Below are positions 4,437-55,466 of a DNA stretch of 64,000 nt, one piece after another (within the stretch, counting starts at the first letter, position 1; the number at the start of each line of letters is the position of its first letter). The DNA is taken from NCBI GenBank assembly GCA_002702065.1, contig NZXX01000013.1:62001-126000 (forward strand), in the 5' to 3' direction. This DNA is from Anaerolineaceae bacterium. Its GTDB lineage: Bacteria > Chloroflexota > Anaerolineae > Aggregatilineales > Phototrophicaceae. Below the pieces are notes generated by a model, which saw only the letters and a list, made by a program, of their open reading frames with translations, was not told the DNA's origin and made no database searches. Both the position numbers and the translations under genes were made by a program.

Positions 4437-4673
4437 AAATCGCGATGCAGCCTCAAACCCATGCTGCACCCCCTCAGCCAACGGCTAAAGTCAGAAAACT
4501 CTAACCCGGAACCCAACACAAAACAGAACTTTTGTTCTATACTGTAATCATCTCTGGGGCGACATCGGGCAGCCCCTTCCCCTCTGACCGCATTATTCAT
4601 ATTTCCGGACATCTGCGCCCGCGCAGGTGTTTGCTTTTGTTCGTTAACAGACCCGATCAGGAGGTGACAAATC

Positions 4674-4865
4674 ATGCGCAAACGCTGGCCGCAGTGGCGG
4701 TCGTTTCATGCGCTCATTCGCGCTTTGCAGGGCATCACCGCATCGGTCATGCTGCTGCTGGCGGTGGATTGGGCGATTGGGGATGGCACACACCGGGCAT
4801 GGTTGGCCGTGCTCGGCATCGTGCTGACTTTGCTCCAGATCATCGATCAAAGCGACAGCGACTGA
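4674..4865 (+). CDS. Small two-helix membrane protein
   Basis: 63 aa, unrecognised. A very strong Shine-Dalgarno (AGGAGGTGA at 4659-4667) sits six bases before the ATG, which argues it is translated. Two hydrophobic segments (ITASVMLLLAVDWAIG and RAWLAVLGIVLTLLQII) are separated by a short GDGTHR turn, with basic residues at the N-terminus and an acidic tail (DQSDSD). It stands alone between the sulfatase and the dioxygenase-like gene. Confidence 0.65.
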   Translation: MRKRWPQWRSFHALIRALQGITASVMLLLAVDWAIGDGTHRAWLAVLGIVLTLLQIIDQSDSD

Positions 4866-5074
4866 GTATCGATTCAACCTGCCATCCGCTGGCAACGGTA
4901 TGAAGCAGGTGCCCAGACACCCAGCGAGCCGGGGCATTTGACCAGTGACCGCTCGCCGGGTGTGCTGTGGGTACGACACGTTACCGTTCTGCAAATTGTT
5001 GACCGGCGCAGCTAACGAAAGTAGACTCGGCGCCGGGTTGGGCATGGACTGCCCGAACCACACCATGAATCCAT

Positions 5075-5926
5075 ATGCTTATTAAGGATAAAAACATTGT
5101 GACCATCGATACTCTGCCATCGCTCGATTCCGATTATGCCATCCAGCCAGAGCAGGTTCAGGCGTATCAGGACAACGGGCATATTCTGCTGCGCGAAGTC
5201 GCCAGTGCAGCGGAGATCGAGGCGTTCCGCCCGGTCATCAGCGGTGCAGCGATGACCTTTAATAAGGAAACCCGCGCGCTGGCTGACCGCACCACCTATG
5301 GCAAGGCGTTTCTGCAAATTTCCAACCTGTGGGAACGCGACGAAGCGGTCAAGCGGTTTACGCTGGCGCGGCGTTTTGCCCGCATCGCAGCTGACCTGAT
5401 GGGCGTCGAGGGGGTTCGCATTTACCACGATCAGGCCCTCTATAAGGAACCGGGCGGCGGCTTCACCCCCTGGCATCAGGACCAGCATTACTGGCCGCTG
5501 GCCACCAACCACACCGTTACCATGTGGATGCCGCTGGTCGATTTGCAGGCGGATATGGGCATTATGCAATTTGCGTCCGGGTCGCACAAAGCCGGCTATC
5601 TGGGGGATATGCCGATCTCCGATGAATCCGAAGCGACGATCAGCCAGTATGTGAAGGAAAACGGGTTTGGGCTGTCGCAGGCCGTCGCCATGCAAGCCGG
5701 TGACGCGACCTTCCACAGCGGCTGGACCCTGCACAGCGCGCCCGGCAACAGCAGCGACACCATGCGCGAAGTCATGACCGTGATTTATTTTGCCGACGGC
5801 GTGAACATCTCGGCCATCGACAATGCCAACCGTCAGCAGGACCTGGAACGCTGGCTGCCTGGCTGCCAACCCGGTGACCCTGCTGTCAGCCCGTTAACAC
5901 CGCTGGTGTACAAGCGCGGGATGTAA
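5075..5926 (+). CDS. Phytanoyl-CoA dioxygenase (PhyH) family protein
   Basis: 283 aa, a non-heme Fe(II)/2-oxoglutarate dioxygenase of the PhyH superfamily. The iron site is visible as H134-x-D136 in TPWHQDQHYW, with the distal His in TLHSAPGNSSD (H220) and an Arg shortly after (MREVMTVIYF) that would bind 2-oxoglutarate. PhyH proteins hydroxylate varied small molecules, and the substrate is not predictable here. A GTG eight codons downstream (5099) is an alternative start. The gene ends 14 bp from the convergent CoA-binding gene. Confidence 0.9.
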   Translation: MLIKDKNIVTIDTLPSLDSDYAIQPEQVQAYQDNGHILLREVASAAEIEAFRPVISGAAMTFNKETRALADRTTYGKAFLQISNLWERDEAVKRFTLARRFARIAADLMGVEGVRIYHDQALYKEPGGGFTPWHQDQHYWPLATNHTVTMWMPLVDLQADMGIMQFASGSHKAGYLGDMPISDESEATISQYVKENGFGLSQAVAMQAGDATFHSGWTLHSAPGNSSDTMREVMTVIYFADGVNISAIDNANRQQDLERWLPGCQPGDPAVSPLTPLVYKRGM

Positions 5927-5940
5927 GGCACGGGCACGAC

Positions 5941-6420
5941 TTAATTCAAGCGCCCGGTTGTCCGCAGCACCCAGCGCATACAACTGTGGAAGATGTCCGC
6001 CTGCTCCAGAAACATCATCGGGCAGCCCACATCAATCACATTGACGCCTGCCGCCTTGCAGCGGTCAACGGCGGCCTGCGACACACTCGATGGCATGAAC
6101 GTGTTGTTGTGCATCCAGACGCGTTTGATGCCGAGCTGTAAGGCTTCGTCGACAACCTGCTCGGACACATCCGGGCTGTTCATGATGAACACCGCATCCA
6201 CACCATCCGGTATGGCACTCAGGTTGGGGTAGCAGGTGTCGCCATGCAGAGCTTCGGCGCTGGGATGCAGCGGGAATACCTGATAACCCTGCTCGCGCAG
6301 CTTCAGGTAGATCGCCCCGGCGCCGCTGTCTTTGGTGCGCGACAGGCCAGAAACCGCGATGCGCCGCTGGGCCAGGAAGTCCTTCACTTTTTCAGGATGG
6401 GTCATTGTTGCCACTGCCAT
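5941..6420 (-). CDS. CoA-binding domain protein (YccU-like)
   Basis: 159 aa, consisting almost entirely of a CoA_binding_2 Rossmann domain: RRIAVSGLSRTKDSGAGAIY forms the nucleotide loop, then YQVFPLHPSAEALHGDTCYP, VDAVFIMNSPDVSEQVVDEA and KRVWMHNNTFMPSS. Family members are small cytosolic proteins that bind CoA or acyl-CoA and lack the ligase domains of succinyl-CoA synthetase. The start is supported by AGAGGTGAGAG directly upstream of the ATG. Convergent with the PhyH gene; no operon partner. Confidence 0.9.
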   Translation of the reverse strand: MAVATMTHPEKVKDFLAQRRIAVSGLSRTKDSGAGAIYLKLREQGYQVFPLHPSAEALHGDTCYPNLSAIPDGVDAVFIMNSPDVSEQVVDEALQLGIKRVWMHNNTFMPSSVSQAAVDRCKAAGVNVIDVGCPMMFLEQADIFHSCMRWVLRTTGRLN

Positions 6421-6773
6421 GATCTCTCACCTCTTTTATCTCACGGGGTTGATTCCAGTGATGCCTTGTCGATCGTTGAAGCAGGCCGCATGCTTTGCCG
6501 GGGTGCATACCGGTGCTTTAGACGATATTGCTTTTCAGGAATGGCTTGCAGGCGCGTGCAGACGACCCGCAAGTCATCATGCTGCGCCTCTACCGGCATT
6601 CGCGTGAAACTCAATCTGATTGCAGCACACATCGTCAGGTGAAGGTAGTGCAGAATATCACCCCGGCAAGTGACAGGCGACAGCGGAACGTGTGAGTATG
6701 GTCATGGATGCCTACGCCCGGTTGCGCCGACAATGAATGAGAAGATTCATGGGTCGATGCGCAGGGGGCATCT
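6421..6773. other. Intergenic stretch with no recognised feature
   Basis: About 350 bp between two divergently oriented genes. The short ORFs that cross it show no ribosome site or domain. It should hold the promoters for the CoA-binding gene (minus) and the flavodoxin gene (plus), but no convincing -35/-10 pair was seen. Confidence 0.4.
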
Positions 6774-7205
6774 ATGAACATTCTGGTGCTGTATCAAAGT
6801 CGGAAAGGGCACACGCGGCAGGCAGCCGAAGCTATCGCCACCGCCGCCCGCAGCCAGAACCACAATGTGGTGGTCAAATCCGTGATCGAAGTGCGCAAGG
6901 TCGACGTCGAGGCCGCTGATGTGCTGTTTGTAGGGACATGGGTGCATGGCCTGATTTTGTTCGGGGTACGCCCGGCAGAAGCCGAGTTGTGGGTGCCGGC
7001 GCTGCCCGCGCTGGCTGGCAAGCCAACGGGAATCTTCTGCACCTATGCGTTCAATCCGCGTGGCAGCCTGACCATCATGGCCGATCTGTTGACGGCACGC
7101 GGGGCGAAAGTTACGGCTCAGCGCGCCTTTCATCGCAGCCGCCCCGGTCATGGCGCCGATGTGTTCGTACGCGAGGTGTTACAAAGCGTGGGATTAGCTG
7201 TTTAG
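6774..7205 (+). CDS. Flavodoxin-like protein
   Basis: 143 aa, the usual length of a short-chain flavodoxin. The N-terminal strand and phosphate loop MNILVLYQSRKGHTRQAAEA would bind FMN. VLFVGTWVHGLILFGVRP matches the 60s loop region, and GIFCTYAFNPRGSL the 90s loop. It probably acts as a small electron carrier or NAD(P)H:quinone-type partner. The start follows a CAGGGGGC ribosome site. No clear redox partner gene is adjacent. Confidence 0.85.
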   Translation: MNILVLYQSRKGHTRQAAEAIATAARSQNHNVVVKSVIEVRKVDVEAADVLFVGTWVHGLILFGVRPAEAELWVPALPALAGKPTGIFCTYAFNPRGSLTIMADLLTARGAKVTAQRAFHRSRPGHGADVFVREVLQSVGLAV

Positions 7206-7328
7206 CAAGTTAGCCATCTAGCTATTTAGCTTTTCGGTACGCATGAAAACGTCCGTTGGGGTCAGTGCATCCCCCCAGTAAACCTATTCAATTGTACTTA
7301 GTGGCACTCGAAACAGGTGAACAAGACC

Positions 7329-7466
7329 GTGATTGATGCAGAGCGGGTGGCGCTGACGCAGGCCGCCAAACGCGACCTGGCCCGGTTTGTGAACGCCGAT
7401 GGCAGCGTCAGCTTCGAATCACCGGCGCACATTGTATCGGCTTGTAAAGCTGACCAAGTTGATTGA
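7329..7466 (+). pseudogene. C-terminal remnant of a class I methyltransferase
   Basis: An open stretch of 45 codons reads VIDAERVALTQAAKRDLARF...DGSVSFESPAHIVSACK and then stops. This closely resembles the last residues of UbiE-like SAM-dependent methyltransferases, where a DGSVSFxxPAHIV ending is common. An in-frame stop lies at 7299-7301 and nothing upstream encodes the SAM-binding domain, so it looks like the tail of a deleted gene. Recognition rests on memory of the family ending only. Confidence 0.4.
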
Positions 7467-7492
7467 AGCAATCACCCGGCGACGGAGATAAC

Positions 7493-7537
7493 AAAAACCC
7501 GGCAGATTACAGGCCCCAGAGCCGCCAACATGCCGGG
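7493..7537 (-). terminator. Rho-independent terminator of the 52-aa membrane protein gene
   Basis: On the minus strand a CCCGGCA...TGCCGGG stem (7498-7504 with 7531-7537) is followed directly by five T residues. It lies 28 bp after the stop codon of the gene at 7565-7723. Confidence 0.6.
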
Positions 7538-7564
7538 CGAAAAGTTTATGAGAACGGGTCTGTT

Positions 7565-7723
7565 TCAGGCGATCCGCCCTGCCCGCTGATGTTGGATGTC
7601 ACGTTCACGTTTGCTCTGCCACCGGTCGATCAGGACACCCAGCCCGACCAGCAGCACGACCGGCACGCCGATGCGAAAGAGAAAAAGCCCCGCAACGACC
7701 AGTGTGGTGATGAGCGCGTCCAT
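7565..7723 (-). CDS. Small single-pass membrane protein (missing from ORF track)
   Basis: 52 aa, below the ORF-track cutoff. The reading is MDALITTLVVAGLFLFRIGV... followed by a second hydrophobic run PVVLLVGLGVLIDRW and a basic, Gln/His-rich tail. AGAGGAGC lies five bases upstream of the ATG and a terminator follows the stop, so it looks like a complete transcription unit. No family assigned; a one- or two-helix membrane peptide with a cytoplasmic basic tail. Confidence 0.6.
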   Translation of the reverse strand: MDALITTLVVAGLFLFRIGVPVVLLVGLGVLIDRWQSKRERDIQHQRAGRIA

Positions 7724-7951
7724 GGTTTGCTCCTCTAGTCTGCCGCACGCTTATCTACCTCCACCTTAGCAAATCGAGGCCCGCCGGTAAATTGGTGAAG
7801 CACCCCACGCGCTTATAGGGTGTGTGTCACCTGTGCCCTGACAAATGTCACAGGCGGGGAATGCGCCACCCTGGTATCCGGCTGCGGTTATTCCACCGCG
7901 ATCCGGTATGCGGGCAGCCAGCGCATTCCCGTTCAACGTCAAACGCTGCGT

Positions 7952-8845
7952 TTACCGCATCGACACCGGGCCATCATCCGCGCTCACCAGCGGCGCCACC
8001 AGCTGCGCGATGCTGTCCTCGATCCGTACCAGACCAATCGGCGCATTGGGGTCGCCATCATAGCGGACGATGCGCTTGAAACGGCTGTCCGTCTGAATCG
8101 ATGTGGTCACAGTGGCATGATCGGTGACGATCTGCTCCTGATAGCTATCCGCCCAATCAAAGTAGCCCATGATCTCGGCAATTTCGGCAATACTGGTGAC
8201 CATAAACGGCTCGACCTGCATAACCTGGACGCCGATGGTGGCGACATTGGCGATGCCGGTGAAGACGACCGTGCCATCCGCATACAGCGCGACGCTGTAG
8301 ACCGGGCAGAAGCCGAAGCACGGGTCACGCTGGAGCGTGATCACCGGCGATTCCATGCCGTGCAGGATGCCGGATGGGTCTGCCGAGACGCCGGTCCACT
8401 GCTGGGTGCGGCCCATAAGGTCGATCCACTGCTCCAGGTAAGGCAGCGCCAGCGGTGCGGATGAGTCACCCGCGTAGCGCGTGATCTGCTTGGTTTCGCC
8501 ATCGCGCGTCACCGAGGTGGTGATCGTTGGCAGGTCAGTCACGGTCATTTCGGTGTATTCATCAGCCCACTCGAAGTAACCCGCCGCCTCGAAACCCGCC
8601 ACCAGTTGTTCGACCACTTCCGGTTCGATGGTGGTGGTCTGCTCGCCGGTCACCTCGACAAAGTTGCCGCCGTTATAGACGACAGTGCCGTCGTCATAGA
8701 TCGTGACGGTGTAAACCGGGCACGAGCCAAAACAGGGCGTGCGTTCCAGCGTGATGACGGGGCTGGCATTGGCCGGCTGTGCCTGCACCGAAACCAGTGG
8801 CAGCAGCAGCGCGGTCAGAAGACTGAAAATGATGAGCTTGTTCAT
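7952..8845 (-). CDS. Exported protein with two DUF6438 domains
   Basis: 297 aa. A Sec signal peptide ends VSVQA|QPANA. Two homologous domains follow: the first has ITLERTPCFGSCPVYTVTIY, the second ITLQRDPCFGFCPVYSVALY, each with the CFGxCPVYxVxxYxDGTVV signature of DUF6438 and a later YFEWAD/YFDWAD segment. The paired Cys (C-x3-C) in each could form a disulfide or bind a ligand. The function of DUF6438 is not known to me. The start is moved 28 codons in from the ORF track because AAGGAG/AAAGGA and the signal peptide lie there. Confidence 0.82.
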   Translation of the reverse strand: MNKLIIFSLLTALLLPLVSVQAQPANASPVITLERTPCFGSCPVYTVTIYDDGTVVYNGGNFVEVTGEQTTTIEPEVVEQLVAGFEAAGYFEWADEYTEMTVTDLPTITTSVTRDGETKQITRYAGDSSAPLALPYLEQWIDLMGRTQQWTGVSADPSGILHGMESPVITLQRDPCFGFCPVYSVALYADGTVVFTGIANVATIGVQVMQVEPFMVTSIAEIAEIMGYFDWADSYQEQIVTDHATVTTSIQTDSRFKRIVRYDGDPNAPIGLVRIEDSIAQLVAPLVSADDGPVSMR

Positions 8846-51384: not shown

Positions 51385-52473
51385 CTAAAGGCCGGTCGCG
51401 GTGACGCCGTATGTGCCGGAGCTGTAGACATACACATGATTCTCCAGTTCGCCATCGTCGTTCGGTTCCGCACCTTCCAGAAACCGGAAGACCCACTTGG
51501 CGTCGCTGATGGACAGATTGACGCAGCCGCGGCTCTGGCGATAGCCAAAATAATCGTGCCAGTAGGTGCCATGCAGGCTGATGCCTTCGTCAAAGTACAT
51601 GACCCAGGGGACGTTTTGCAGCGCATAGGCATTGGGCGCGCCCGTTGCACCGGACATACCATCCCGTTCTAGCCGTGCCCACACCGTGAACAGGCCCTCG
51701 TTGGTTTCTGTCCGGGCCAGCCCGCTGGAAATCAGCGTCGCATAAACCGGGGTGTCATCCTCATATGCCACCAGAGTCTGCTCGTACAGGTCCACCGCCA
51801 CCCAGCGCCCGGATACGCCTTCGGGACGTTCGACCGTCTGAACCTTCGCCACAAACCGCTGCTCCACCCACTGGTTCGGCCCGATCATATACCAGCGCCA
51901 ACCCTCTTCATCATGGGCGGTGGCAAAGATATTGACGCGTTCGTAACGCCGCAGAAAGCGCCCTGTTTCGGCATCCTGTGGCCCGCCGGGATAGCGCGAA
52001 ACGGGGATACTGCTCATATCCAGCACCCAGGCAAAGGGCAGCTCCACATCCTCGGTCAGCGTCACCCCTTTGAAGAATGACGGTTGGGTCCAGCGGGCAT
52101 CATCCTGCCGCAGCCAGCGCCCATCCACAATTTGCAACCACCCTTCCACGCTCAGGTCAACAGCGTGGACAAAGTTAAACCCGCGCGGAATCTCGCCGGT
52201 CACATTGCCACCGGGTCCATCGAAGGTCGGCACCGGGTCCGGCCCGACACGCCAGAAACTGTACGTATCCAGGGTGTAGCCATCGAAGGGGATTTCCTCG
52301 ACCAGAGGCCGGGGGAAAGCAGCGATCATGGCCGCGCAGGCTTCGCTCAATTCCCGGCCATCGTCGAATTCGGCGCAAACAGCCGGGTCATACGCGATAG
52401 GTTCTTCTGCCCCGACAGGCATGATGATGCTCAGGCAGAGCAAAATCCCCAGCAGTGCCAGCACTCGTTTCAT
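51385..52473 (-). CDS. L,D-transpeptidase (YkuD domain)
   Basis: 362 aa. A signal peptide (VLALLGILLCLSIIMPVGA) is followed by a region with an SH3-like fold (VGPDPVPTFDGPGGNVTGEI) and a C-terminal YkuD domain: RWVAVDLYEQTLVAYEDDTP, then GISLHGTYWHDYFGYRQ and the catalytic SRGCVNLSISDAKW. These enzymes make 3-3 peptidoglycan cross-links or attach proteins outside the membrane, so the organism probably has some peptidoglycan. The start at 52473 is 18 codons inside the ORF. A TATAAT promoter lies upstream and a strong terminator downstream, so it is a single-gene unit. Confidence 0.92.
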   Translation of the reverse strand: MKRVLALLGILLCLSIIMPVGAEEPIAYDPAVCAEFDDGRELSEACAAMIAAFPRPLVEEIPFDGYTLDTYSFWRVGPDPVPTFDGPGGNVTGEIPRGFNFVHAVDLSVEGWLQIVDGRWLRQDDARWTQPSFFKGVTLTEDVELPFAWVLDMSSIPVSRYPGGPQDAETGRFLRRYERVNIFATAHDEEGWRWYMIGPNQWVEQRFVAKVQTVERPEGVSGRWVAVDLYEQTLVAYEDDTPVYATLISSGLARTETNEGLFTVWARLERDGMSGATGAPNAYALQNVPWVMYFDEGISLHGTYWHDYFGYRQSRGCVNLSISDAKWVFRFLEGAEPNDDGELENHVYVYSSGTYGVTATGL

Positions 52474-52567
52474 TGTTTGATTACCCTCATCCATACCGAT
52501 AGTAGATTGCCCATACCAGCAGAACATTTGCCAGACTCATAGCCCGGCCCAACGTCACAAACACGGC

Positions 52568-52677: not shown

Positions 52678-53448
52678 TCAGGCGGCTTTGCGGTTGTAGA
52701 CGCGCATCGCAAACAGGTAGGCGACGATCAGTATGCCGCAGCACCACGCGAGCGCAACCCAGATTTCGCTGCCGACAGGTTGCCCGGTCAGCAAGGCGCG
52801 GATAGCCTCCACGATGGCCGTTACAGGCTGATTTTCGGCAAACACACGCACGACGGTTGGCATTGAATCCGTCGGGACAAATGCCGAGCTGATAAAGGGC
52901 AGGAAGATGAGCGGGTAGGAAAAGGCGCCTGCCCCATCCACCGTTTTTGCAGACAGCCCCGCAATGACCGCGATCCACGTCAACGCCAGCGTAAACAGCG
53001 CGAGTATGCCCGCCACGGCCAGCCACGACAGGATGTCTGCCGACGAGCGAAAGCCCATCACCAGCGCGACGAGAATAATGACGACAACCGAAATCGCGTT
53101 GGATACCAGTGAGGTCAGCACGTGCCCCCACAGCGGCGCCGACCGCGCAATCGGCATGGAGTGGAAACGTTCAAAGATGCCCCCCTGCATATCCATGAAC
53201 AGGCGATAAGCCGTATAGGCGATGCCGCTGGAGATGGCGATCAGCAGGATGCCCGGCAGCAGATAATTCACATAATTGTCGGTGCCGGTTTCAATCGCCC
53301 CACCGAACACATAGACAAACAGCAGCATAAACGCAATCGGCATAATGGTGACGGTGATGATGGTGTCCATGCTGCGAAAGATATGGCGCATGGAACGTCC
53401 GAGCATGACGCTCATATCGCTGAAAAAATGTTTCCTGATGGGTTCCAT
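52678..53448 (-). CDS. ABC-2-type exporter permease, DrrB-like
   Basis: 256 aa with six helices. MLGRSMRHIFRSMDTIITVT leads into helix 1, and the ABC-2 core includes GGIFERFHSMPIARSAPLWG and FLPFISSAFVPTDSMPTVVR, the last matching the DrrB-like signature. With the adjacent ATPase it would export a drug, lipid or other hydrophobic compound. It begins directly after the ATPase stop codon. Confidence 0.93.
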   Translation of the reverse strand: MEPIRKHFFSDMSVMLGRSMRHIFRSMDTIITVTIMPIAFMLLFVYVFGGAIETGTDNYVNYLLPGILLIAISSGIAYTAYRLFMDMQGGIFERFHSMPIARSAPLWGHVLTSLVSNAISVVVIILVALVMGFRSSADILSWLAVAGILALFTLALTWIAVIAGLSAKTVDGAGAFSYPLIFLPFISSAFVPTDSMPTVVRVFAENQPVTAIVEAIRALLTGQPVGSEIWVALAWCCGILIVAYLFAMRVYNRKAA

Positions 53449-54210
53449 TTATGGCTTCTCCTTTTTGCCAATGATGGCGAGGAAAATCTCCTCCAGTGTC
53501 GGCTGCTTCTCCACGTACTCCACCGTTGCAGGTGGGAACATCCTTTTCAAGTCTTCAAGGGTGCCGTTGGCGATTATTTTGCCTTCGTGCAAGATGGCAA
53601 TTCGGTCGGCAAGCTGCTCTGCTTCTTCCAGATACTGGGTCGTCAGAAACACAGTCGTACCGTTATGCGCCAGCTCTCTGATCATTTTCCAAACCTCAAG
53701 GCGTGCTTCGGGGTCCAGCCCGGTGGTTGGCTCGTCCAGGAAGATAAGCTGCGGTTGACCGACCAGACTCATGGCAATGTCCAGCCGGCGGCGCATACCG
53801 CCCGAATAGGTGGCGACACTGCGGTCGGCAGCGTCGGTCAGGCCGAAGCGATTTAACAGATCATCAGCAACCTGACGCGCATTTTTGAGGTGCCGCAGCC
53901 GGGCGATCATGACCAGATTTTCGCGCCCGGTCAGGATCTCATCGACGGCGGCGAACTGCCCTGTCAGGCTGATCGACTGCCGCACCGAGTCGGGATTCGC
54001 CCCAACCTCGAAGCCGTTAACCACCGCCGTTCCGCTGTCGGGCTTGAGCAGCGTGGTGAGAATTTTGACAATCGTCGTCTTGCCCGCACCGTTAGAGCCG
54101 AGCAGGGCGAAAATGCTGCCCGGTTTCACCTCAAAATCCACACCTCTCAGCACGTGTAACTGTTTGAAGGACTTTTGCAGCCCCTTCACCTGAATTGCCT
54201 GATTGTGCAT
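53449..54210 (-). CDS. ABC exporter ATP-binding protein, DrrA-like
   Basis: 253 aa. Walker A FALLGSNGAGKTTIVKIL, signature YSGGMRRRLDIAMSLVG, Walker B LIFLDEPTTGLDPEA, H-loop VFLTTQYLEEAEQLADRI (TTQYLEEA is typical of DrrA). The ORF starts six codons too early; AAAGGAGG supports 54210. Divergent from the MarR-type gene, with paired inverted repeats between them, so the exporter is likely under that regulator. Confidence 0.94.
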   Translation of the reverse strand: MHNQAIQVKGLQKSFKQLHVLRGVDFEVKPGSIFALLGSNGAGKTTIVKILTTLLKPDSGTAVVNGFEVGANPDSVRQSISLTGQFAAVDEILTGRENLVMIARLRHLKNARQVADDLLNRFGLTDAADRSVATYSGGMRRRLDIAMSLVGQPQLIFLDEPTTGLDPEARLEVWKMIRELAHNGTTVFLTTQYLEEAEQLADRIAILHEGKIIANGTLEDLKRMFPPATVEYVEKQPTLEEIFLAIIGKKEKP

Positions 54211-54246
54211 GCGTGCCTCCTTTGGCATCCCTCTGGCAATTTCCTG

Positions 54247-54255
54247 TGCTATAAT
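54247..54255 (+). promoter_or_regulatory. Extended -10 (TGCTATAAT) candidate for the MarR-type gene
   Basis: TGCTATAAT fits an extended -10 (TGnTATAAT) 114 bp before the regulator start. It sits beside the inverted repeats, so a bound regulator could block it. Confidence 0.35.
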
Positions 54256-54262
54256 GCTTTCA

Positions 54263-54309
54263 ACTTGAATATCCAGCTAACACCCCATCATATAACTGGA
54301 TAAACAAGT
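54263..54309. promoter_or_regulatory. Long inverted repeat between the exporter and MarR-type genes
   Basis: ACTTGAATATCCAG (54263-54276) and CTGGATAAACAAGT (54296-54309) are inverted copies matching at 12 of 14 positions, with a 19-bp spacer. A likely operator for the divergent regulator. Confidence 0.5.
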
Positions 54310-54326
54310 TTAATTATCTAATTTAC

Positions 54327-54339
54327 CTTGATAGTCAAG
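54327..54339. promoter_or_regulatory. CTTGA-TAG-TCAAG palindrome
   Basis: A perfect 5-3-5 inverted repeat 30 bp before the MarR-type start. It shares the CTTGA/TCAAG arm with the longer inverted repeat next to it, consistent with two sites for one regulator. Confidence 0.5.
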
Positions 54340-54368
54340 TTATTTAACTATACGCGGAGAAAGCAGCA

Positions 54369-55466
54369 TTGTCAATGGGTTCTCAGAAAAAACAGTCGGC
54401 GGTCGTCGAGCAACTCGTTCGCGAGCTGCGGCAGGGTCACGGGCTGGGGGCCTCCTTCTTCCGGGCGGCGGCGGCACAAGCCGAGATGACAGACACCGAT
54501 ATGCAGGTCATCGACATTCTGGAGACGACTGGCGAAGCGACTGCCGGTGAGCTTGCCAGCCTCATGGCACTGTCAACCGGGACCTTTACGGCTATTCTTA
54601 AACGATTGGAGAATGCCGGGCTGGTGCGGCGGGAGCGCGACCCGAATGATGGCCGGCGCGTGATCGTAAAACTGGCGACCGGCGCAGATAGCAAACCAGA
54701 CATCGCCCTTCTGTTTGCTTCCCTCAGCGACGTATGGGCAGAACTGGCGGCACAGTACGATGATGAGCAGAAGGCCGTGCTGCTGGACTTCCTTCAGCGC
54801 AGCAACGCGCTGGCCAGGGAGGAAATCGCGCTGATGCGGGAAGAACCGGTGTCGAGCGAGGGCATATCCGCCGCCCCACTCGGCAGCCTGGAACACGCCC
54901 AGCTCGTCATCTCGTCCGATACGTTCGGGCTGAACCTGCGCGCGGAAGACCTCAGCGATGCGCTCTACCACGCCCGGTTCGAGGGGCCTGTGCCGGATGT
55001 GAAGGTCAAAGAGGGCGTCGTGACCATCCGCTATCCGCGTCGTCTGTGGCTGCCCGGCCTCAAGAAGCGGGCCGCAGAGGTGACACTCAGCGTCGCCATC
55101 CCCTGGCAAATCGTGCTTCAGGGCGGCGCATCGGAGATAACGGCTGAATTGGGCAATCTCAATCTCGTCTCGCTCGAACTGAAAGGCGGCGCCCATTCCG
55201 CCCGGCTCGAACTGCCTGCGCCTGCCGGTGTCGTGCCGGTGCGGATAAGCGGTGGCGCATCAGAAACGACGATTCGACGCCCCGCCGGGACCGCCGCCCG
55301 CGTTCACCTGAAAGGCTGGGCCTCCGAGTTTGTTTTCGATGATCAAACATTTAGCGCGGTGGGCAATGATGTGCGGTTGCAAAGTCAAGGCTTTGATTCG
55401 GCTGGTCCATTTTATGACATCGAGGTGGACAGCTCCGCCAGCCAGCTCACGATCACCACGGACTGA
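54369..55466 (+). CDS. MarR-type regulator fused to a beta-rich C-terminal domain
   Basis: 365 aa. Residues 1-165 are a MarR winged helix: MTDTDMQVIDILETTGEATA, ELASLMALSTGTFTAILKRL, ENAGLVRRERDPNDGRR. After a linker, residues about 180-365 form a repetitive beta-rich domain with short Gly/Ala turns (LQGGASEITAELGNL, LKGGAHSARLELPAP, ISGGASETTIRRPAG, LKGWASEFVFDDQTF), like DUF4097/beta-helix adhesin repeats. Such a tail is not part of a normal MarR protein. A TTG start with GGAGA eight bases upstream is favoured; the ATG at 54375 is possible. It is divergent from the DrrAB genes. Confidence 0.85.
   Translation: MSMGSQKKQSAVVEQLVRELRQGHGLGASFFRAAAAQAEMTDTDMQVIDILETTGEATAGELASLMALSTGTFTAILKRLENAGLVRRERDPNDGRRVIVKLATGADSKPDIALLFASLSDVWAELAAQYDDEQKAVLLDFLQRSNALAREEIALMREEPVSSEGISAAPLGSLEHAQLVISSDTFGLNLRAEDLSDALYHARFEGPVPDVKVKEGVVTIRYPRRLWLPGLKKRAAEVTLSVAIPWQIVLQGGASEITAELGNLNLVSLELKGGAHSARLELPAPAGVVPVRISGGASETTIRRPAGTAARVHLKGWASEFVFDDQTFSAVGNDVRLQSQGFDSAGPFYDIEVDSSASQLTITTD

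Follow-up and report, generated by a model that had tools for sequence, protein, structure and literature searches.

The gene at 54369–55466 encodes a MarR-family regulator fused to a C-terminal domain that, judged by its modelled fold and profile matches, is a Toastrack (the DUF4097/DUF2154/DUF2807 class). Positions refer to the window, the whole 64,000-nt stretch of DNA analyzed here (Anaerolineaceae bacterium GCA_002702065.1, NZXX01000013.1, positions 62,001–126,000, forward strand). We read the protein as an autoregulating exporter repressor that acts on phased operators and carries the Toastrack as an exchangeable signal-input module, an interpretation to which we give about even weight. 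An autoregulating exporter repressor would be the natural reading because the gene is linked to an exporter, palindromes lie near both starts and the protein is kin to MarR. The regulator comprises the following features:

54369–55466, + strand: MarR–Toastrack fusion regulator, 365 aa, TTG start, intact single ORF.
54378–54839, + strand: MarR part, residues ~4–157, from PF01047/PF12802 and the secondary structure of the model.
54867–55463, + strand: Toastrack beta-helix domain, residues ~167–365, from the model and a Foldseek match to 4QRK.

The original prediction, made from the sequence, was of a MarR DNA-binding domain joined to a beta-solenoid-like domain, and both halves are borne out. 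The MarR part matches PF01047 at residues 41–98 (E 4e-14, 52.7 bits against a gathering cut-off of 24.6) and PF12802 (49.6 bits against 27). Structure prediction, which had been suggested as a check, was run with AlphaFold2, drawing on 24 relatives (pLDDT 84.8, pTM 0.55), and returned MarR helices and an all-beta domain from residue 167. In this model, a long first helix (residues 3–38) precedes a winged helix (41–102) and two dimerisation-type helices (110–127 and 132–157), after which a weak linker (159–164) leads into the beta domain, with strands at 167–364. We consider each modelled domain fairly sure, but not the placing of the MarR part and the Toastrack relative to each other. On inspection of the sequence, GGAG lies just 5' of the TTG start, and the start codons of relatives (ATG, GTG or TTG) align with that TTG. 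Two ways in which the fusion might be spurious had been named, a sequencing error joining two genes and a start inside the fusion. The first is ruled out by retention of the same fusion in relatives, including three independent MAGs (77–79% identical) and isolate genomes; as to the second, a GGGAGG-like motif does precede the internal candidate Met156 (54834), yet this Met is missing in all eight relatives inspected.

The best PDB match of the beta domain is 4QRK (Foldseek E 3.6e-10, TM 0.75 by target), which ranks ahead of MarR-family structures (2fbi, MarR, HpaR) and is also matched by phmmer at residues 232–314 (E 0.0024). This reference Toastrack structure, one of two examples in PMC11237479, upholds the earlier assignment of the C-terminal repeats to a DUF4097-like class. 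No Pfam family, DUF4097, LiaF_C and Toast_rack_N included, matches the C-terminal ~200 aa above its cut-off, and we draw the Toastrack kinship from the fold and from hmmsearch with family profile A2, which finds LiaF-TM Toastracks of the same phylum (E 1e-17 to 1e-46). From fusions and missing export signals, PMC11237479 argues that the Toastrack is an intracellular, sub-membrane assembly platform whose docking may signal via fused or associated HTH domains, and it reports operons in which a Toastrack protein anchored in the membrane is encoded together with an ABC exporter and a GntR or RHH regulator; neither MarR nor TetR is named in its main text. Because that paper places the Toastrack inside the cell, a cytoplasmic Toastrack is to be expected, and the original view that such domains are normally on cell surfaces is unsupported. 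The regulator was rightly said to have no membrane segment (top 19-residue Kyte–Doolittle mean, 1.24), and this topology, together with PMC11237479, rules out a surface adhesin. In open-access papers, we found no description of a MarR or TetR fusion to DUF4097/toast-rack. The host genome also encodes membrane-bound Toastracks: far from the window, locus L075 (G000:C12:261000–275000) holds three clustered LiaF-TM/Toastrack genes at 4610–8435, two of which match LiaF C-terminal or Toast_rack_N models.

Immediately upstream of the regulator lies a divergent pair of exporter genes:

53449–54228, − strand: DrrA-like ABC ATPase, 259 aa, divergent from the regulator (PF00005, 7e-32; TIGR01188, 302.5 bits, cut-off 312.45).
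52678–53448, − strand: DrrB-like ABC-2 permease, 256 aa, abutting the ATPase gene (PF01061, 6e-21; TIGR00025 below cut-off).

The original prediction had called this a divergent DrrAB exporter. The orientation and the superfamily hold, whereas the family name does not, as the pair falls short of the NCBIfam DrrA/DrrB cut-offs (302.5 against 312.45 for TIGR01188 and 40.8 against 223 for TIGR01247); an ABC_tran ATPase beside an ABC-2 permease with such scores is 'DrrAB-like' only. Just beyond the exporter on the same strand, 51385–52488 encodes an L,D-transpeptidase (YkuD) that could share the exporter operon. PspA, PspC and LiaFSR genes are absent from the adjacent genes scanned in the window (the ABC pair, the L,D-transpeptidase, a short hypothetical gene and an enolase-superfamily gene).

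Exporter linkage recurs across the regulator family. Exporter genes were called with profiles built in-house for DrrA, DrrB and MFS. Of 44 MarR–Toastrack loci, 32 have an exporter directly upstream in divergent orientation, compared with 5 of the 39 MarR-only loci (Fisher 4e-8); when exporters up to two genes away are counted, the figures are 34 of 44 and 10 of 39. The p-values are optimistic because the loci are partly related and the MarR-only controls come largely from other phyla; contig ends also truncate several loci. Exporter linkage was found at 1 of 11 LiaF-type Toastrack loci. The partner pump may be DrrAB-like ABC or MFS, and the family is thus tied to export as such rather than to one pump. 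Two exporter types accompany the regulators, with an ATPase of ~256 aa (permease 67–89% identical) or of ~312–344 aa (permease 40–48% identical), and exporter type shows no strict correspondence with the regulator tree. About a quarter of MarR–Toastrack loci have no adjoining exporter, among them L038 (glycosyltransferase), L091 (beta-lactamase family) and L093 (P450). The beta-lactamase-family gene (L091, 5439–6674) and the cytochrome P450 gene (L093, 4476–5831) lie near the regulator in place of an exporter and are possible other targets of it.

Inverted repeats had been predicted between the regulator and exporter genes; they are present and resolve into three phased operator-like sites, which sit between the extended −10 of the regulator and a candidate pump promoter (both promoters predicted):

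54247–54255, + strand: extended −10 TGcTATAAT of the putative regulator promoter, invariant columns in seven aligned intergenic regions.
54260–54280, no strand assigned: operator-like site 1, TCAACTTGAATATCCAGCTAA, 21-bp imperfect palindrome.
54292–54312, no strand assigned: operator-like site 2, ATAACTGGATAAACAAGTTTA, 21-bp imperfect palindrome, 32 bp from site 1.
54323–54343, no strand assigned: operator-like site 3, TTACCTTGATAGTCAAGTTAT, 21-bp imperfect palindrome, 31 bp from site 2 and nearest the regulator start.
54347–54375, − strand: candidate exporter-operon promoter TTGACA-17-TATAGT, facing the regulator promoter; a prediction, one found and 0.7 expected in shuffles.

Scored against site 3 of L079, three sites at spacings of 31–33 bp occur in the window, L078–L081, L084 and L095, and for each of these no more than 1 of 300 shuffles yields a third-best site as good; sites 1–3 of the window rest on this L079 reference, since the reference that the window chose for itself failed and picked ATAGTCAAGTTATTTAACTAT. 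The palindrome has drifted in other MarR–Toastrack lineages (TTATCTTAGTAACTAAGATAA, TTAAGTGACTCAATCACTTAA) and often lies ~26 bp from the start. We preferred a reference-site test to a reverse-complement lag test because odd-length palindromes raise all even lags. The best upstream copy is exactly 32 bp away, or about three helical turns of DNA, in 17 of 36 MarR–Toastrack loci (12 of 29 once near relatives are excluded), the 32-bp copy being absent from part of these loci; it recurs in 2 of 39 MarR-only control loci and in a mean of 1.2 (maximum 5) across 200 simple shuffles. None of the 18 TetR–Toastrack loci described below has the 32-bp spacing. The phased sites suggest contact between neighboring MarR dimers.

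The search for the same domain pair, another check suggested at the outset, found the fusion in more than 35 loci, mainly in Chloroflexota and with cultured isolates among them. Full-length fusions are present in ~20 of 301 genomes of the phylum at 32–59% identity. In the GTDB species set, the fusion is 77–79% identical in three Anaerolineae MAGs and occurs in isolates of Ktedonospora, Thermosporothrix, Ktedonosporobacter, Herpetosiphon and Thermogemmatispora and, more distantly, of Pseudofrankia (Actinomycetota); among genomes sampled from the class and family to which the window belongs, matches were weak or partial only. Over 43 fused proteins, the identities of the MarR part and the Toastrack co-vary (Mantel r 0.87, 0 of 1000 permutations), so the fusion is old. 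Some loci depart from the intact arrangement. The third copy in Thermogemmatispora tikiterensis (L058, 5107–6843) has the MarR part and Toastrack as two overlapping ORFs, with the permease truncated and the ATPase missing, which suggests decay of this copy or a split pair; the reading frame in the Ktedonobacter racemifer isolate (L109, 6983–7892) is apparently interrupted. Actinoplanes sp. RD1 (L117, 4526–7582) has a separate MarR gene (41% to that of the window) and a separate Toastrack gene at one locus, a pair that forms an unfused counterpart to the fusion.

Near-identical regulators have exchanged their Toastracks. The MarR part of the window regulator groups with L078–L081, L083 and L084, and its Toastrack with L078–L080 and L205. 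Forcing the Toastrack grouping on the MarR tree is rejected (p-AU 1.3e-6), as is the MarR grouping on the Toastrack tree (p-AU 2.2e-4), values that are descriptive because the groups were picked after seeing the identities. The L080 and L084 proteins are 94% identical in the MarR part and 61% in the Toastrack; their DNA identity is 96–97% from +0 to +400, 58–66% from +800 to +1070 and 80–93% from +1100 to +1300, past the stop. Informative sites change from L080-like to L083- or L081-like within the gene (0 of 5000 permutations), and this pattern places a recombination breakpoint inside the regulator gene of the pair. The second Toastrack type is found on other contigs in L081 and L083, so one chimeric assembly is no explanation. 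Exchange of the Toastrack with the MarR part, operators and pump staying the same suggests that this domain sets input specificity.

Toastracks also occur nested in TetR regulators and as stand-alone proteins. Protein P0002 (L062), of 438 residues, has TetR_N followed by a TetR_C_1 split in two, with the Toastrack between the pieces at residues ~174–367. Its model has TetR helices to residue 160, strands at 185–366 and helices at 399–407 and 412–437, and its best PDB matches are TetR structures. Another 17 TetR–Toastrack proteins from the phylum keep the last helix, with an I-L-L-D-G-V-E-like sequence, and an exporter lies within two genes in 13 of the 18 loci. In the tree, the 17 form one clade with L062 apart; neither a single TetR clade (p-AU 0.4) nor one clade of all HTH-fused Toastracks (p 0.144) is rejected. 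At L064 and L065, a stand-alone Toastrack of the same lineage is encoded within a DrrAB-like operon, and at L063 another precedes an MFS pump.

Four elements of our reading, namely repression, cooperativity, the Toastrack as input and the inducer, are ones that we infer. As a one-component repressor in the cytoplasm, the window regulator would act on the divergent DrrAB-like exporter and probably also on its own gene. Dimers of its MarR part would bind two or three of the 21-bp palindromes, on one DNA face and ~32 bp (three turns) apart, and occupied sites between the two facing promoters would block both. The C-terminal Toastrack would read the exporter substrate, or a partner reporting that substrate, and the signal would alter dimer geometry or dimer–dimer contacts such that the array leaves the DNA and pump expression begins.

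In MarR proteins, ligand sensing usually takes place in the MarR core itself, and a sensor role for the Toastrack is thus not a given; the domain might mainly be an oligomerising scaffold that bridges MarR dimers on the phased operators into a tight cooperative array, with the inducer sensed in the MarR core. A MarR dimer covers ~20 bp, which leaves a gap in the 32-bp spacing that an extra domain could span. The recurrence of two or three same-face sites 32 bp apart in MarR–Toastrack loci, against 2 of 39 MarR-only controls, fits such an array, as does the proposal that Toastrack sheets are protein–protein interaction surfaces (PMC11237479). However, stand-alone Toastracks sit in exporter operons without a DNA-binding part and TetR hosts (0 of 18 loci) do without the spacing, which suggests a role beyond dimer contact, and near-identical MarR parts and operators carry quite different Toastracks, which is odd for one fixed contact array. 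We therefore think it rather unlikely that scaffolding is the main role. An intact MarR core alone would be enough for ligand-controlled repression, and the gene could thus be an ordinary MarR repressor in which the Toastrack plays no active part and has been retained by chance or for its effect on stability; we regard this as very improbable given a fusion kept across divergent lineages with co-varying domain identities (r 0.87), the same domain in TetR repressors of exporters and a Toastrack exchanged by recombination rather than lost.

The C-terminal domain of LiaX in Enterococcus faecalis is likewise a Toastrack. Control of LiaFSR through that domain (PMC11601895), LiaF-type Toastracks fused to LiaF-TM beside PspC in the same phylum and the proposal of sub-membrane assembly platforms (PMC11237479) would all suit a Toastrack through which the regulator is tethered to the membrane or to a partner there (the exporter, or a PspC- or LiaF-like protein), so that engagement of the envelope or pump would keep the repressor away from DNA. 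Yet the same Toastrack lineage serves ABC and MFS pumps, which have no docking surface in common, the window regulator lacks a membrane segment and the adjacent genes scanned include no PspA or PspC gene, making docking improbable in our view. Of the two roles offered at the outset for the Toastrack, ligand sensing and an oligomerising scaffold, the phased operators favor contacts between dimers, and the domain swap, the TetR insertion and the Toastracks encoded alone in exporter operons favor the signal-input module. More tentatively, and with more doubt than belief, we extend this reading to the Toastrack as a general, recombinationally exchangeable sensor cassette of one-component exporter repressors, in which the DNA-binding part, operators and pump would be kept and the beta-helix swapped to change the compound detected, sitting C-terminally in MarR hosts and inserted in TetR hosts.

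MarR repressors and Toastracks are both established, as is the fact that Toastracks are occasionally associated with regulators and transporters. The window regulator shares a wHTH core and dimerisation helices with MarR-family exporter repressors (MarR, MexR; HpaR-type fold), and at its locus, as at theirs, palindromic operators (predicted ones in the window) lie between a regulator gene and a pump gene that diverge; it stands apart by ~200 extra residues forming the Toastrack beta-helix and by a 32-bp phasing of its two or three operators. The 4QRK fold is common to the window regulator and Toastrack proteins such as LiaF, LiaG and PspC fusions (PMC11237479), and profile A2 detects LiaF-TM Toastracks, whereas our family is fused to MarR or nested in TetR and has no membrane segment. 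L062 resembles TetR_C_1 class repressors (TetR(D), TetR of Acinetobacter) in its N- and C-terminal TetR helices and divergent exporter, but its Toastrack is inserted in the ligand-binding domain, at residues ~174–367 of 438. The Listeria lltR-lmo0600-lmo0601 operon (PadR/DUF1700 (HAAS)/DUF4097; PMC6624303) also ties a Toastrack genetically to a one-component repressor, but with separate proteins, PadR instead of MarR, a membrane HAAS partner and no divergent exporter. As far as the open-access literature could be searched, we found no earlier description of Toastracks fused to MarR or nested in TetR, of operators phased at 32 bp or of natural swaps.

Toastrack (DUF4097) domains are widespread and have mostly been studied in membrane-stress systems with a complex signal path. 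Here they belong to soluble repressors whose output, at a pump promoter, is defined, so that their sensing or action can be measured directly. The natural swaps of Toastracks on a nearly constant MarR part are ready-made comparison pairs, and cultured hosts exist in Thermosporothrix, Thermogemmatispora, Ktedonospora and Herpetosiphon. If the Toastrack is a sensor, it would give a large set of unexplained regulators a testable role.
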